Shown here piece after piece: positions 21,141 through 37,372 of a stretch of 37,372 bases of DNA; positions within the stretch are counted from its first letter, which is position 1, and each line of letters starts with the position of its first letter. Location: the NCBI GenBank assembly GCA_946803715.1, contig CAMPET010000018.1:554493-591864 (forward strand), given 5' to 3'. The notes below the pieces were generated by a model. It ran no database searches. It had not been told where the DNA came from and saw nothing but the letters and a program-made list of their open reading frames with translations. A program made the position numbers and the translations under genes. The DNA is from Beroe ovata (Eukaryota; Ctenophora; Nuda; Beroida; Beroidae).

Positions 21141-24100
21141 TTATCTTCGATTTTTGCGTTTCTTTTGTGAAAGTTTGATTCCCAACTCTGGTTCCATCTT
21201 TTCCAACAAATCAAGAATCTGAAAATAATGGAAACACTGTTATTTCATTGATGCCTACAAGTTACTGTTGTTTAGAACTGAAAACTATGCGGAAATATTT
21301 GAGAAATTTGCATAGTTCATGGATTGGATGATTGAATAAGAGTCGCATTAGTTACGATACTGCGCGTACTATACTGCGCGTACTATACTGCGCGTACTAT
21401 ACTGCGCGTACTATACTGCGCGTACGATACTGCGCGTACTATAGTTACGATGAGAGATAGTAAGTTAATTCTCTTTTGACTCTGTTTACGCATTTCATTT
21501 GTGAACAGAGTCAAAAGAGAATTAACTTGAGAAATTTGGCACTTACCCAATCAAGATGCTCGCGAGTATGAGATGCTGAGATACAGAATCGTGCTCTAGA
21601 TCCCAGCATGGGCGTGGCCGGGAACCCAACAACCACCGGAGCTAGCCCCATCGCTAGCGAGTATTTGGCGAACGCTCTGAGGGCGGTATCGAGAATTAGA
21701 ATTCCGAATTCATGAGTTGTCGCCTGTCGACCTGAAGTTGCAACCTGATCTAGCCTATTCTACGAGAGGATTAAATTTCTCTCGGAATTATCCTGTCCCT
21801 GCAGATTACCCAATTATCACTAGTACTAGCACTAGCAGTTCACTTCATTCGTTTGGTTGATCAACTTCACCAGCAGCTGATTTTCAGCTGTTTCTCAATC
21901 GTGCATTCTTGATTCTCAAGCAAGGACTTTGCTCAAATGGTTGTACCATGGGTTTAATTACCGCGTTACTCGCATCGCAACACACGTGATTTTCCACCTC
22001 TTGACACAATTCATACGCTTCTCTACACGTGTTTTCTACTCACATTACTTGTGCAATGGTCAGTATTAGGACTGGAACGACGGGAGAGTGAAGGTCGCCA
22101 AACACAATATACCCTCGTTTCTGCAATTCTCTTCTAAAGTACCTAGTGAAAGTTAAAATATACATCAAATGAATCAGTTTAACGGTCATTCCATTGGATC
22201 TGTTAATCGTTGGTCAGCAAATAATCAGAACTGTGTTAGTATTACTATATTTCCGCTGCTGTATTAGCAGTGAGTTTTGGTGCTACCTTGTGTTTTCTGC
22301 AAGCTGTTTGATACGTCTAGCCCCATCATTCGTCCCATCAACCCCCATGATAGCACGTGTAGCAGCAATAATCTGCCGGCACACTGGCGGTGAGATGGAG
22401 TTACTGTATACGTGTGCGTGTGATTCCTTCTTCAGATGGGCGATAATTTCCTGGGGGAGTTTCAGTCAAACACAGATATACAGACGGACAGACAAACAGA
22501 CAGACAGCAGGCGTGTAAACGGACTCAAACATTCCTACGTGACAATTATGCATGCAGTGGTGTCAGCATGTTGAGACGAATGGGATACCCTAGCGTCACA
22601 CATCCCTGTTCTGACGTACTGGTGTCAGCGAATTCCATCGCAAGCATTCCTACGTCACAGTTATGTAGTGGTGTCAGCAAGTTGTGACGAACGGGGTACC
22701 CAATCGTCACGAAGCCCTGTTCTGACGTTCTGGTGTCAGCATATTCCATAGTCTGCATTCCTACGTCACGGTTTTGAAGTGGTGTCAGCGAGTTGTGACG
22801 AATGAGGTACCCAATCGTCACAAAGCCCTTTTCTGACGAACTGGTGTCAGCGCATTCCATCGCAAGCGTTCCTACGTCACAGTTATGTAGTGGTGTCAGC
22901 AAGTTGTGACGAACGGGGTACCCAATCGTCACGAAGCCCTGTTCTGACGTTCTGGTGTCAGCACATTCCCTAGTCTGCATTCCTACGTCACAGTTATGCA
23001 GTGTGTCAGCGAGCTGTGACGAATTATAGTAGCCAATCGTCAAAGAGCCCTGTTCTGACGTACAAAAAATTGGACCTCTGATGAGAATTTTCGAAAACTT
23101 CACCCTATAGAAGAGAACTTAACCTCTGACCCAATACCCCCGCTTCCACTTTATCAAAGATGTAATCCGACGAGAAATGTTAGTTGTCGACTTGAAATAG
23201 CTATCTATAATCCACATTTGTGGAATGAAAACATTGTTTAAAGCTTTGAAGTAGACCCTCTCTTAAATAGTACTGATGCACACACACACACANNNNNNNN
23301 NNNNNNNNNNNNNNNNNNNNNNNNNNNNNNNNNNNNNNNNNNNNNNNNNNNNNNNNNNNNNNNNNNNNNNNNNNNNNNNNNNNNNNNNNNNNNNNNNNNN
23401 NNNNNNNNNNNNNNNNNNNNNNNNNNNNNNNNNNNNNNNNNNNNNNNNNNNNNNNNNNNNNNNNNNNNNNNNNNNNNNNNNNNNNNNNNNNNNNNNNNNN
23501 NNNNNNNNNNNNNNNNNNNNNNNNNNNNNNNNNNNNNNNNNNNNNNNNNNNNNNNNNNNNNNNNNNNNNNNNNNNNNNNNNNNNNNNNNNNNNNNNNNNN
23601 NNNNNNNNNNNNNNNNNNNNNNNNNNNNNNNNNNNNNNNNNNNNNNNNNNNNNNNNNNNNNNNNNNNNNNNNNNNNNNNNNNNNNNNNNNNNNNNNNNNN
23701 NNNNNNNNNNNNNNNNNNNNNNNNNNNNNNNNNNNNNNNNNNNNNNNNNNNNNNNNNNNNNNNNNNNNNNNNNNNNNNNNNNNNNNNGTGCGTGTGTGTG
23801 TGCGTGTGATTGCTGCATCTACATGAACTGTGCACTCGACACCCATATCAGCATATCAGCATATATCAGCAGCGAATGTTACACTTCAACTGTTGTTCGG
23901 CAGAAGTTCCAGTACATAATTGAATTGTTAAAACTCTGAATTGTCCAGTACAGCTCTCAGTACAGCTGAATTGCCCAGTACAGCTCTCACACAGTTATCG
24001 CTCTCTCTCTCACTACATCACGATTATTTATGTTAACAAGTAGCGAGCTGAGGACAACATAAATCAAGCTTGTCATGATACTCGTCAAACATGTTACTAC

Positions 24101-27100
24101 ACAATAATGTTATTACAGTTTATTGAACAACTTCTGTTCAAGTCCGTCAAATTACATAACTTTGCAAAGGGAACACGTAAATGACCGTCTCTGACCACCC
24201 GATACCCCCAGCTCAGGTACAATGCTCGTAACGAGGATCCCTCTCCTCCTTCTCATCACCCTCCTCCCTCTGGTCACCAAGACGTCTAACATCCTCTTAA
24301 CAGTCCCGTTCAAAGGGAGCCACTACTTTGCCATCGCCGATATCGGGATCCTCCTGGCGGAGAAGGGTCACAAAGTGTCCTTCCTAACGATGATGCTCGA
24401 TCCTAGGTTTACCAAAACTCATGACAACTTCAGGATAATCCCGCAGTTCCCGACCACCATGAATGAGGACGGTTTCGATGCTATCGCGGAGAAATGTATC
24501 AGGGGTATCATTGGCGCGAGACGAGACTATGAAATGTACGCAGACTCCATGATGTCGGATGCCTTGTGCCGGGAAGGCTGGCTCCTTATCTACGAGTCAC
24601 TTGTTGATTATTACACTGGTACACATTTCAACGAATTGATACAGAACCATGCATTCGATCTCATTATCGCTGAGGAAAGAACTGTGGCGTCAATCCTTGT
24701 GCCAACACACGAGCAGAACATACCACTCGTGGCATATGTCCCCGAGGTGGAATACTCAATGCCACGAGAGGCACAGAATCTGCCCATGTTTTTGAGCAGT
24801 GAGCCGGGGCTGGGTATTCAGGTTTACCGTGGTCAGAAGCCCGGATTCTGGTACAGGGCAAAGTCACTGTTCAACCTGGTGAGTGGAGCTACTCTGATGA
24901 AAAGTGGTATAGCCAGGGTTATGCAACCTGTATACGAGAAGTACAATGTCGTGGACGGGCATGAGGAGCTCATGGAACGTGTCCAGCTGTACCTCATTAA
25001 CGACCACATAGCAGTGTCATTCCCGTACCAGATACCCAACAATGTGATCCAGATAGGAGGGTCGTCTGTGGGCCCTGGCAAACCTCTGCAGGGCCCTCTT
25101 CTGGAGTTTATAGAGAAACAAGAGCAACCAATCATCCTGGTGTCTGTGGGCTCGTATACGGACATGAAATGGTTGTATTGGTCCAATTCTCTGATACAAG
25201 CGTTGGAAGAGATGGATGTGGCTGTTATTGTGAAGACATTGCCAGACAGCATACCAAGCGTTTCCGACAAGTTCTACACATCAAACTGGCTGCCTCAGAA
25301 AGATCTGCTGTTCAGTGGGAAAATAGATCTGTTCATATCGCATTGTGGAAATAACGGTAAAATCGAGACGATCCTGTACAATGTTCCTGTTTTGTGCACC
25401 CCAATTTTTGCAGAACAGGCACTGAACGGTGAAGTTGTCCACGATAGAGGTTTCGGTGAAATGCTCCTACCACAAGAAATGACAGCCGAGAACTTCAGGA
25501 CAGCCATATCGAGAATGCTAAACGAAAAGGAGAGCTATGTAGCGAACATGAAACGGGCAACAGAATACTTCTACTCGGAACCCGCCACAGGTACCCAGAA
25601 AATGCTCTACTATCTGGACATACTTCTCCGTGATCGAAACCTCGATTTCTTGGAAAATAAGATGATAAAAACTCAGAGCTCGATTGAGATTTACCACCTG
25701 GATATCATCGGTTTTGTGCTACTGCTTGCTGGACTTGTTACAATGTTAGCTGGTGTTATTCTGGTTAAAGTTGTGAAACGCGTATGCTCAATTCTGCAAA
25801 ACAAAAAGAGTAAACGGGATTAGCAAACTTAACGTTTAACTGATAGTGTTGTAAGGAATGTGATTATGTAGCAATAGGCAAAATAAAGTCAATGATAATG
25901 GTATGATAATCTTTGATACACCAAGTTTTATTTCTACAATTACAAAGGACTCGTACCTTGTACCTCTTCTTGAGCTCGACAATTTTGGGAAGGTTGCAGG
26001 AAGTTCCTTCCATTGAGTAGATTCCCTCCACCACAATCAGTATTTTCTTCCACGGTCGCCTTGTTCTTGGCTCTCCTTCAACAATTGACGTCCGTAAAAT
26101 TGTTTCCAAGTGTTTCATATCTGAAATTGGAGATATTATCTTCGTGAGCGCTGACCAATCAACGGACGCGGAAGTGGTGTCATGAGATAGGTATAATTGA
26201 TTTAATCAAGGATACCGGAGACTTTTTACAAATTTAATTTGCTGTGATAAGAGTCATCGCAGTTCGAAGTTTGCTATCCAATTTCTTGATACTGCAGAGA
26301 GGTGGATCCAAAATCACGCCCGATGGAGAATTTCTGCAATATCCAATAGCACTCTCACAAGCATTAATTGTACGGTGAATTTGAAACACACAATATGCAG
26401 GTGCCGTGAGTCCACTATCACCTGATATCGACAAAATCGCAATGACAACGAGCGGAAACGATTCGCGCGCGCGCATTTGTTTTACAAGTAAGCCCAAATG
26501 TTTTTTCCACAAAATTTAGACATGACGTTCGCGCCTTCCATAGAAGTTGCCCGTTGCCCATCCTCTCTTTATATTCAGTTAAAACATGAAGAGAATTTCT
26601 CATTTCAAGAAGCTCACCGTTGTGTTTGAAAACTTTGATCTTTGCACCGGAGAGACGAGCTCCAAGGACAAGGGATGAGTGGTTCAGTTCGTCACTTATA
26701 AGAAGACACCCCTTCGAAGCAACGTATGAGAGAAATGAAGTTAGATCATGACCATATGCCTAAATTATCAATGCAACCTAAATTCTCTATTCAACAATTA
26801 TCTAACAGACCATTATCTAACAAATTGGTAATCACCTGCGATACAAGCGTAGCCATGTTCATTGAGTTTGTGGCGAAGCCCATTCCAAACACAATACTCT
26901 CCTCCTTCCCAACAAATGACGCAACGAGGGTCTCCAACTCGTTGTGTAGCTTGTTCGAGCCTGGGGTAGGAATGTAGGTTATCAAGCCAGAACTGATGCT
27001 TATCACTAAAACTGGATTAGGAGTGATCGCAGGCTGAATTTTCCCAATGAACACTGAGAAGTCTGCCGCCTCCTGTTTTTCAGTCTTCAGATTGGTCTAA

Positions 27101-28844
27101 AACAACTCATATCTGCACTGTAAGATGTTGATATCGCGTAGATACATGCATGTATATAAGAACACATGCACACACACACACACACACACAGTCACGCACG
27201 TATATACAGTGCACACACACACACGTTGGTACATAGTGCATACACAAACACACACACACAGACACACACACACACACAGACACACACACACACTTGCATG
27301 TTGAAAATAGGAAGAAGAGAATAGGGATATAGATTCACACTTGTCACGGTTACACAGTTAGTCGGTGGTTTCCTATGCATGAGTAATACACAGGAAAGAT
27401 ACGGTGGATAAAACACCCTGTCAGGGACCTGGCTAAATTCTACACCATCGTGGAACGGAAGTGACGTCATTATAATCCCCTGCTTTCTTCGTGACGCTTC
27501 TACAGAAATGGTGAATCGAATGTCCAGAAAATTCTAAATCCCATGTTGATGAGCCTGTCGGCTCAAATTTCTTTTCTATGATTCTATACGCGTTTACTAC
27601 CGAAATATGTAGGTACCAGTGACCGATTCATCCACACAAGAACTTACTGATTTCTCCACACAAGAACTTACTGATTTCTGCACACAAGAACTTACCGATT
27701 TCTGCACACAGCCACTTACTGATTTCTGCACACATGAACTTACCGATTTCTGCACACAAGAACTTACCGATTTCTCCACACATGAACTTACCGATTTCTG
27801 CACACATGAACTTACCGATTTCTGCACACATGAACTTACTGATTTCTGCACACATGAACTTACCGATTTCTGCACGTGAGCTGGAAAGAGCTGACCCGGA
27901 ACCCCATCTTATTTCATGGATTGTTTCCTGCGAACAGATGCCAGAGTTCTGAGCAAAGCCCAAGTAGTTGTAACTCCCAATGTTTATATACTTCCTCTTG
28001 GTATTCTGTAGTCTGTGGGAATGTTCATGCAATAGCCGCACTTTTATACTGTTACTGTGTACAAGCTTCAAAATGAGTGAGTTACTGTGTGTAGGTACTG
28101 GCAAAATTGAGACAGGAATTCGAGGAGAAGCACGAAAATCACACATTGTATTGATAAAAAATTCATGGTGATTATGAGGAAACCTGCTCCTGTGTGGACC
28201 AGTTGGGACTCAGTAATAACGAGCAATAATAAGTGCCTATATCACTGCACTGTACTCACTGCATGGTCTCGTTGAAAGGGCCGAACTTGCGGTCCCATAT
28301 CTCGATCTCCGGACCAGGCACACCCGCCACTGGGTGGTCCCAGAACTGTCTGACACGCTGGTAGATGTTCCGAGTGTAGAATGATTCAAAGTCCCGATAT
28401 AGTGGAACAAAGCCCTGAAACATTATAAACATTATTATGAACATTATAAATATCTTTTTATAATCTCGATTATTCTGAGGGCATTCTCATGATATAACTT
28501 ACAGTACCTACAGTACCAAAGCATTGTGCTATTACCTCATTTCCATATTCGACAGTGCTCATTGTCTTATCAAAGCCTAACTTGCGGAGCAATTCTCTCA
28601 AGTGTCCAAATACAACCAGAAGAAACAGACCCAGATATGTGGACATCACGGAGAAGAAAGGAGGTGGCTCAAATGAACTATCATATTCCTCTTCGTCAGT
28701 ATCATTGGGAACATCTGGGTGTTGATCTGTGGTGTCCCCATCGTTTTTCTTCCCCATTTTCCCCGAATCATGGTAAAGTTTAGGAGGTTGAGGAGGACAA
28801 TGGTCCTCACACAGACTCGTCGAATTTCCTCCTTCTGGGGGCAT
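21141..28844 (-). CDS. SPTLC2: serine palmitoyltransferase subunit 2 (SPTLC2/3 type)
   Basis: Catalytic PLP subunit of the ER enzyme that condenses serine with palmitoyl-CoA, the first step of sphingolipid synthesis. Ten exons are visible on the minus strand: 28844-28536, 28414-28260, 28012-27864, 26960-26836, 26711-26618, 26120-25957, then 22450-22287, 22142-22044, 21676-21547 and 21218-21141. All are phase-consistent. Exon 1 has an N-terminal membrane segment ([15 protein letters not shown]). Later exons carry [69 protein letters not shown] and [18 protein letters not shown]. Between 25957 and 22450 a block of about 54 codons is missing; in the family it holds DEAHS and the PLP-binding TFTKS lysine. 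The neighbouring phases (0 and 0) fit one lost exon, most likely inside the N run 23293-23787. The full protein would be near 540 residues (human 562). The stop is TAA 21143-21141. A UGT gene is nested on the opposite strand. Confidence 0.93.
21356..21439. repeat. 14-bp tandem repeat, 6 copies, in the last SPT intron
   Basis: Six copies of TATACTGCGCGTAC; the first and last begin GATACT. Each contains the palindromic core GTAC and a GCGC. Confidence 0.95.
21462..21528. repeat. perfect 25-bp inverted repeat with a 17-base loop
   Basis: Arms 21462-21486 and 21504-21528 are exact reverse complements; the arm begins AAGTTAATTCTCTTTTGACT. The structure lies in the last SPT intron, 22 bases from the 14-bp array. 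Confidence 0.95.
22480..22510. repeat. CAGA-rich microsatellite
   Basis: Short interrupted CAGA/CGGA tandem repeat inside an SPT intron, directly before the 111-bp satellite. Confidence 0.8.
22530..23063. repeat. 111-bp satellite, about 5 copies (SPT intron)
   Basis: The anchor TGTTCTGACG (TTTTCTGACG once) recurs at 22607, 22718, 22829, 22940 and 23051, an exact 111-base period. Each unit holds several CGTCA/TGACG and GTGTCAGC motifs. Because 111 is a multiple of three, a 185-codon frame stays open across it; this is not a gene. The same family lies at 36930-37372. Confidence 0.95.
23293..23787. other. assembly gap (495 N) in the SPT gene
   Basis: Bounded by (CA)n on the left and (TG)n on the right. 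It lies between the exons ending at 25957 and starting at 22450. The only missing conserved SPT block, with the catalytic lysine, is expected here. Confidence 0.95.
24222..25823 (+). CDS. UDP-glucuronosyltransferase family (GT1) enzyme, intronless
   Basis: A single 533-residue ORF, the usual UGT length. UGTs move a sugar from UDP-sugar to lipophilic acceptors in the ER lumen. Residues 1-22 are a signal peptide ([13 protein letters not shown]). His34 in [10 protein letters not shown] is in the position of the catalytic base. The donor-binding signature near residues 355-400 reads [10 protein letters not shown], then [14 protein letters not shown] and PIFAEQ. The acidic partner residue, usually Asp, is Glu in FDLIIAEE. 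A membrane anchor ([17 protein letters not shown], about 499-515) is followed by a basic tail ending KKSKRD, a KxKxx-type ER retrieval signal. The acceptor-like CAGCTCAG just before the ATG suggests a 5' UTR intron. The gene lies inside an SPT intron on the opposite strand. It is more GC-rich than its surroundings. The substrate cannot be predicted. Confidence 0.95.
   Translation: MLVTRIPLLLLITLLPLVTKTSNILLTVPFKGSHYFAIADIGILLAEKGHKVSFLTMMLDPRFTKTHDNFRIIPQFPTTMNEDGFDAIAEKCIRGIIGARRDYEMYADSMMSDALCREGWLLIYESLVDYYTGTHFNELIQNHAFDLIIAEERTVASILVPTHEQNIPLVAYVPEVEYSMPREAQNLPMFLSSEPGLGIQVYRGQKPGFWYRAKSLFNLVSGATLMKSGIARVMQPVYEKYNVVDGHEELMERVQLYLINDHIAVSFPYQIPNNVIQIGGSSVGPGKPLQGPLLEFIEKQEQPIILVSVGSYTDMKWLYWSNSLIQALEEMDVAVIVKTLPDSIPSVSDKFYTSNWLPQKDLLFSGKIDLFISHCGNNGKIETILYNVPVLCTPIFAEQALNGEVVHDRGFGEMLLPQEMTAENFRTAISRMLNEKESYVANMKRATEYFYSEPATGTQKMLYYLDILLRDRNLDFLENKMIKTQSSIEIYHLDIIGFVLLLAGLVTMLAGVILVKVVKRVCSILQNKKSKRD
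25882..25887 (+). terminator. polyadenylation signal AATAAA of the UGT gene
   Basis: Canonical AATAAA 59 bases after the UGT stop codon. It lies about 70 bases from the oppositely oriented SPT exon that ends at 25957. Confidence 0.65.
27168..27296. repeat. CA-rich microsatellite in SPT intron 3
   Basis: Three CA blocks separated by short unique pieces containing GTATATA and GTTGGTACATAG. Confidence 0.9.
27641..27880 (-). repeat. 24-bp minisatellite that multiplies the exon-3 splice donor of SPT, 10 copies
   Basis: On the minus strand the unit is GCAGAAATCG followed by GTAAGTTCATGTGT (24 bases). It joins the last bases of SPT exon 3 (coding A-E-I-G) to the first bases of intron 3. All ten copies keep GTAAGT; the base before it is G in six and A in four. 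The exon-proximal donor is at 27863. An eroded eleventh unit lies at about 27620-27640. The frame is open throughout and would read (AEIGKFMC)n. Confidence 0.97.
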
Positions 28845-36929: not shown

Positions 36930-37372
36930 TCGGTGGTGTCAGCAAGATGCGACGAAAGGGGTACCCAATCGTCACGCAGACCTGTTCTCACAAACAGGTG
37001 TCAATGCATTCCATCGCAAGCATTCCTACGTCACCGTTATGCACCTTGCAGTGTTGTCAGTATGTTATGACGAACGTGTACCCCAATCGTCACACAGCCC
37101 TGTTCTGACGAACTGGCGTCAGTGCATCCCATCGCAAGCATTCCTTTGTCACCTGTTTGCAGTGGTGTCAGCATGTTGTGACGAACGAATACCCCAATCG
37201 TCACACAGCCCTGTTCTGACGAACTGGTGTCAGCGCATCCCATCGAGAGCATTCCTACGTCACCGGTATAAAGTGGTGTCAGCATGTTGTGACGAACGAG
37301 TACCCTGATCGTCACACAGCCCTGTTCTGACGAACAGGTGTCAGCGCATTCCATCGCAAGCATTCCTACGTC
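36930..37372. repeat. 111-bp satellite, about 4 copies, continuing past the window end
   Basis: Same family as 22530-23063. The anchor TGTTCTGACG is at 37101, 37212 and 37323 (period 111), with a diverged unit before it (TGTTCTCACA at 36983). A 154-codon frame runs through it but has no protein features beyond the repeat. Confidence 0.95.

Follow-up and report, generated by a model that had tools for sequence, protein, structure and literature searches.

A splice donor repeated ten times in frame at an exon end of an SPTLC2-like gene of the ctenophore Beroe ovata

Results

A ten-donor minisatellite at an exon-intron boundary

Exon 3 of an SPTLC2-like gene in Beroe ovata ends in a minisatellite in which the 5' splice donor is present ten times, and this donor array is real. 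Our preferred reading, to which we assign a probability of roughly 0.75, is that a minisatellite spanning the donor expanded in place, with the first donor remaining dominant and the longer isoforms being minor. Within the window (the whole stretch of 37,372 nucleotides of DNA analysed here, with the positions of which all unlabelled coordinates are given), the array runs on the minus strand from 27875 down to 27636 as ten tandem 24-nt units, and Tandem Repeats Finder reported it at 27622-27875 with a period of 24, 10.6 copies and 91% matches. Its features are as follows, with a caret marking the exon-intron boundary.

27636..27875, minus strand: minisatellite of ten units GTGCAGAAATC(G/A)^GTAAGTTC(A/T)TGT, all with the donor intact
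27858..27863, minus strand: first donor GTAAGT, in the context TCG^GTAAGT, of the stronger U1-pairing class; gives the co-linear protein
27642..27647, minus strand: tenth and last intact donor GTAAGT, in the context TCA^GTAAGT, of the weaker class; joining from it adds 72 residues
27612..27635, minus strand: eleventh unit, degenerate, ATCG^GTCACT, donor lost

In each unit, 12 nt from the exon end (GTGCAGAAATCG or a variant) precede 12 nt from the intron start (GTAAGTTCATGT or a variant), and the first exonic half-unit of the array is the coding end of exon 3 itself. The initial annotation had described ten 24-base units of this composition at 27641-27880; the composition stands, and the coordinates were 5 bases off. 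Its statement that GTAAGT is present in every unit is borne out by ten intact copies, which start, in plus-strand positions, at 27863, 27839, 27815, 27791, 27767, 27743, 27719, 27695, 27671 and 27647.

A DNA search of the 77.8-Mb assembly, of a kind that skips simple repeats, located the array and its edges at a single site. This single location speaks against a dispersed or inserted element as the origin of the array and favours its growth in place. In most units (27636-27875, minus strand), exonic AAATCG is also immediately preceded by a stretch resembling TTGTGTGCAG or ATGTGTGCAG that may act as an acceptor, so that splicing between array units via such stretches is conceivable.

The host gene and its paralogue

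The exons around the array were modelled as listed below.

28536..28757, minus strand: SPTLC2-like exon 1, 222 nt, from the putative start ATG, ending GAG^GTAATA (gene model, tblastn of P0001)
28260..28414, minus strand: exon 2, 155 nt, ending CA^GTGAGT (gene model, tblastn)
27864..28012, minus strand: exon 3, 149 nt, phase 1, with the canonical end ...SSSRAEI G^ (gene model, alignment)
26961..27863, minus strand: intron 3 as spliced from the first donor, 903 nt; splicing from the tenth would make it 687 nt
26836..26960, minus strand: exon 4, starting GC TCG AAC, which completes Gly, or Ser after TCA donors (gene model)
26618..26711, minus strand: exon 5 (gene model, tblastn)
25957..26120, minus strand: exon 6 (gene model, tblastn)
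22046..22453, minus strand: later SPTLC2 coding pieces with an intron inside, approximate (tblastn span)
21544..21675, minus strand: later SPTLC2 coding piece, approximate (tblastn)

The six-exon model (28757-25957) has GT donors at all six exons and AG acceptors at exons 2-6, and its joined product comprises 303 amino acids. This product of the first six exons matched human SPTLC2 over chain positions 58 to 338 (E=2e-90), which upholds the earlier naming of the host gene as SPTLC2, and the window product also matched the Pfam family Aminotran_1_2 (E=1.9e-19). Judging from the gene model and from an alignment to human SPTLC2 that is gapless at the junction, the array starts at a true coding exon end. 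The relatives compared were the 120 listed of 6154 matches. Among the named relatives listed, Mnemiopsis leidyi had the highest identity (53%), and a sequence from Caligus rogercresseyi (37% identity) stood just above it by E-value. In a quick tree of the query and the 120 listed relatives, the window product formed a clade with Mnemiopsis leidyi SPTLC2 and four other sequences (support 1.0).

The assembly holds a second, divergent SPTLC2-like gene with a Mnemiopsis-like sequence (L061, C178:61520-63749), and ctenophores may carry two old SPTLC2 paralogues. In the paralogue, intron 3 of the window copy has a counterpart of identical position and phase, with a single donor (GTTAGT) and without an array, such that the array is confined to the window copy among the two. 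The existence of this second gene gives some footing to the idea that the window copy is decaying, its array then being a sign of relaxed constraint and not of what a functional gene tolerates. The paralogue contains the exon with the motif TF(S/T)KSFG, which we take to be the site of the PLP-binding (catalytic) lysine, and tblastn of P0001 and P0002 did not find this exon in the window, where the expected interval includes 495 N. The six modelled exons, however, have clean frames and splice signals, and identities to P0001 in nine pieces of the window copy range over 51-80%, with five pieces reaching at least 69%; moreover, the missing exon may fall in the gap, a run of 495 N at 23293-23787 that lies between CA/TG repeats at the place where the catalytic-lysine exon is expected. 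Decay of the window copy therefore seems unlikely to us.

Within an intron of the same gene, and on the opposite strand, is nested an uninterrupted ORF of 542 amino acids (24195-25823, plus strand), which by eye resembles a UDP-glucuronosyltransferase.

Other donor arrays in the genome

We examined the flanks of 40 distinct places drawn from pattern matches, a non-random set that was partly picked by eye. At two of the 40 places, in genes for transportin-1 and DHTKD1, homology supported a first donor at an exon end. The transportin-1 array (L008; C2, within 750480-753513, minus strand) has five identical donors, GAG^GTAAGT, at spacings of 29, 27, 29 and 29 nt; the protein from its first donor aligned without a gap across the junction to a PDB protein (E=6.2e-57), and all four downstream donors break the frame or reach a stop before the next exon. 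The DHTKD1 array (L043/L036; C88, about 161814-161848, minus strand) has three donors 14 nt apart, with the repeated exon end CTAATCAG^GTAAGA and the next acceptor TTTCAG^GTGAATGAT; the first-donor protein was gapless across the junction relative to human DHTKD1 (E=1.9e-15), and the second and third donors give a frameshift and then a stop. Like the SPTLC2-like array, both repeats start at a real exon end, carry a full donor in each unit and yield the co-linear protein from the first donor. They differ from it in their geometry (27-29 nt and five donors in transportin-1, 14 nt and three donors in DHTKD1) and in that their downstream donors spoil the frame or hit a stop.

Since these downstream donors spoil the protein, donor arrays evidently arise and keep intact donors regardless of frame. 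In-phase and out-of-phase arrays thus both exist, which fits an expansion indifferent to frame with a dominant first donor. Because only the first donor of the DHTKD1 and transportin-1 arrays gives a co-linear in-frame protein, first donors probably dominate in such arrays.

Two further places have partial signs of an exon end. At L057 (C13, about 610313-610353, plus strand), a 17-nt repeat places three GTGAG donors at a putative exon end, and the exon has a weak Pfam Rgp1 match reaching the donor (E=2e-4, below the curated cut-off). At L059 (C1, about 532419-532473, minus strand), the end of a Glu-rich open exon is itself a repeat of 24 nt that contains three GTGAGG donors, all in frame; this exon had no Pfam match, though its splice signals are good. 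For the remaining 36 of the 40 places, the exon-end position was without support, most having been judged by open frames only. Pfam was run on upstream ORFs at L007, L008, L012, L017, L025, L027, L029, L035, L037, L042, L043, L056, L057 and L059, and the sole match above cut-off among these was a DEAD helicase at L056, where the repeat sits in a GT-rich intron start. L037 (C34:321261-321340, minus strand) is a perfect 12-nt array, CAG^GTAAGTTGT, with seven donors and a form like that of the human IFI6 minisatellite; Pfam gave no match above cut-off for its upstream ORFs.

How surprising is one such array? With minisatellites defined by a period of 8-70, at least three copies and at least 80% matches, we counted 4 in 36.5 kb of the window (the SPTLC2-like array included) and 22 in 82.7 kb of locus flanks, that is, 11-27 per 100 kb. 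The flank sample, which is not a random sample of the genome, comprised 35 of 60 loci, leaving out L001-L006, overlapping copies and L057-L060, among others; bases 1251-1850 were removed from each locus because the loci had been chosen for donor pairs. Assuming about 80,000 introns with about ten usable registers each, order-of-magnitude arithmetic predicts that chance would produce about a hundred donor-spanning arrays, prior to any removal by selection, so a single one is unsurprising. The window also contains two arrays of a similar-looking 111-nt repeat (22526-23063 and 36933-37372), about 14 kb apart.

Across the whole genome, GTAAGT pairs 24 nt apart numbered 94, nine of them from the SPTLC2-like array, versus 85 in a reversed control, and AGGTAAG pairs numbered 66 versus 56; a genome-wide excess of donor-bearing tandem repeats, as judged by these two motifs, was accordingly rejected as little or none. 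Pairs of AGGTGAG spaced 10-28 nt apart were 2.4 times commoner than in the reversed control (445 versus 183). Many of the AGGTGAG pairs among the places listed belong to purine-rich GGTGAGG-like repeats. The excess of AGGTGAG pairs may be a hint that donor-like repeats are more than neutral, and to that extent it counts against our preferred reading.

Conservation and strength of the donors

The units vary at five of their 24 columns (-9, -1, +7, +8 and +9). If variable columns are placed at random, the chance that all six columns of GTAAGT stay invariant is about 0.20, and selection on GTAAGT is thus not significant by this count. The initial annotation had taken the invariance as a sign of either recent expansion or selection. 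Recent expansion is plausible; selection is supported neither by the probability of about 0.20 nor by the transportin-1 donors.

These numbers bear on the possibility that the downstream donors serve as decoys or buffers, binding U1 and thereby protecting the exon end from mutation of the first donor, or slowing splicing, with selection keeping GTAAGT. Such a role would agree with the constancy of GTAAGT over ten units while five other columns vary, and with its integrity in all five transportin-1 units. The constancy, however, is within reach of chance as calculated above, the donor has already been lost in the eleventh unit, and falling back on a downstream donor in transportin-1 would give no good protein. 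We therefore regard a selected decoy as quite improbable; a buffered decoy cluster as such requires no selection.

Donor strengths were taken as U1 pairing energies, without a splice model. By this measure, six donors with G at -1, the first donor included, pair with the U1 end at -9.0 kcal/mol, and four with A at -1 at -5.3 kcal/mol. Given that six of the ten are equal at -9.0 kcal/mol, pairing strength alone gives the first donor no preference.

Predicted products of the ten donors

All ten donor-to-exon-4 junctions are in frame, with Gly or Ser at the joint, and the ten predicted products have 0 to 9 octapeptides inserted after EIG and before SNKLHNELE. This agrees with the earlier claims that the frame is open with the correct downstream phase, exon 4 starting with GC TCG, and that the extra peptides are of the form AEI(G/S)KFMC, to which we add variants including KFLC, KWLC and GEI. 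The co-linear protein results from the first donor alone. The frame of exon 3 is open through the array and meets a stop directly past it, where retention of the intron would end translation.

An insert between G176 and S177 was found in none of the 120 listed relatives, among which P0021 has one extra residue two positions past the junction, and the junction glycine (Gly176) is invariant in all 121 alignment rows. Judging from this absence of inserts and the invariant glycine, an octapeptide inserted at EIG^S is likely to harm the enzyme.

The array might nevertheless be a functional generator of isoforms, in which several donors are appreciably used, SPT is tuned in its activity or its binding of partners by 0-9 octapeptides, and individuals differ in the length of the array. 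Ten intact donors, a unit that is a multiple of three, an open frame and ten in-frame junctions speak for such a device, and human IFI6 transcripts are said, in the available part of PMC4526556, to use more than one array unit as donor. An open frame comes cheaply, however: four of the six frames are open through the array, and 69% of random fillings around a fixed exon half and GTAAGT have an open exon frame. Together with the lack of inserts and the invariance of Gly176 in the relatives compared, and with the existence of the DHTKD1 and transportin-1 arrays although their downstream donors spoil the protein, this makes an isoform generator very unlikely. The family of enzymes with 0-9 octapeptides proposed in the initial annotation thus holds as a possible set of isoforms, and its usefulness is not borne out, given the 0/120 relatives with an insert and the single donor of the paralogue. 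More doubtful still is a length dial, in which several donors would be used, repeat number would set, in each individual, graded SPT isoforms having 0-9 octapeptides within the catalytic domain, and the second gene would cover the basic need. Least probable among the explanations considered is an assembly or sequencing artefact hiding a different true copy number, perhaps of few units: tandem repeats are error-prone, but patterned differences between units (five variable columns, mean pairwise identity 0.92) and a degenerate last unit are unexpected from a simple artefact.

Discussion

Origin and consequences of the array

Under the in-place expansion that we favour, a 24-nt segment made up of the last 12 bases of exon 3 and the first 12 of intron 3 would have been duplicated at one ancestral 5' splice site, and would then have grown by slippage or unequal exchange into ten intact units and a decayed one; the order of these duplication events is one that we infer. 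Every intact unit would possess a complete donor because the duplicated segment spanned the donor, and the exonic half would place each new donor in the local context of the old one. The first donor (27863) would be the ancestral one, giving the normal co-linear enzyme, and it probably accounts for most transcripts. The donors further downstream would compete with it, probably at low use, and lead to proteins lengthened in frame by 1 to 9 octapeptides. These would fall inside a conserved loop, and the longer proteins probably work poorly. The array would be tolerated since it spares the first donor and has a unit length, 24, divisible by three; the presence of a second SPTLC2-like gene may also contribute.

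That the first donor probably predominates is suggested by the transportin-1 and DHTKD1 arrays, which would otherwise be hard to tolerate, and by the predominance of the 130-residue form of IFI6. Against first-donor dominance, however, work on duplicated donors has often pointed to preference for the intron-proximal copy, and here that copy would be a downstream donor. The available part of PMC5585400 did not settle which of the duplicated donors is preferred.

Whichever donors are used, the array amounts to a natural contest of ten almost identical 5' splice sites at regular spacing, none of which takes exon 4 out of frame, and each choice of donor can be read from one exon-exon junction. The transportin-1 and DHTKD1 arrays allow in-phase and out-of-phase cases to be compared within the same genome. 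Use of several donors would turn the number of repeats into a heritable switch between enzyme isoforms.

Comparison with known systems

In the literature searched by titles and the starts of abstracts, which covered few subscription papers, we noticed no other multiple-donor minisatellite beyond the cases discussed here. Two kinds of repeat come close. As in intron gain by tandem duplication (PMC4974935, available part), splice signals have been multiplied by tandem duplication; unlike there, the SPTLC2-like array copies the donor side only and needs no new intron. Human segmental duplications are described in the available part of PMC2812944 as containing variable internal tandem repeats at exon-intron boundaries. 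In those cases, too, expansion of a boundary minisatellite alters gene structure, and is said there to accompany alternative transcripts; they involve recent primate paralogues and putative new introns (PMC2812944, available part), whereas the SPTLC2-like array multiplies the donor of an old intron.

The architecture resembles the minisatellite of human IFI6 (6-16), with a donor in every unit, a start at an exon end and an in-frame unit that is a multiple of three. The IFI6 unit is 12 nt long, a multiple of three, and the 130-residue form is the first-donor form. A 1995 paper on this minisatellite is cited in PMC2572611, PMC3618361 and PMC4526556. According to the available part of PMC4526556, two downstream repeat units of IFI6 are said to serve as donors, with three mRNA species as the result, among whose products the form of 130 residues is predominant. 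The two systems thus share minisatellite units that carry donors, the use of downstream units giving isoforms in IFI6 (PMC4526556, available part). The SPTLC2-like array differs in its 24-nt unit, its host gene for a conserved lipid enzyme, its ctenophore host and the predicted position of its repeat peptide in a conserved loop.
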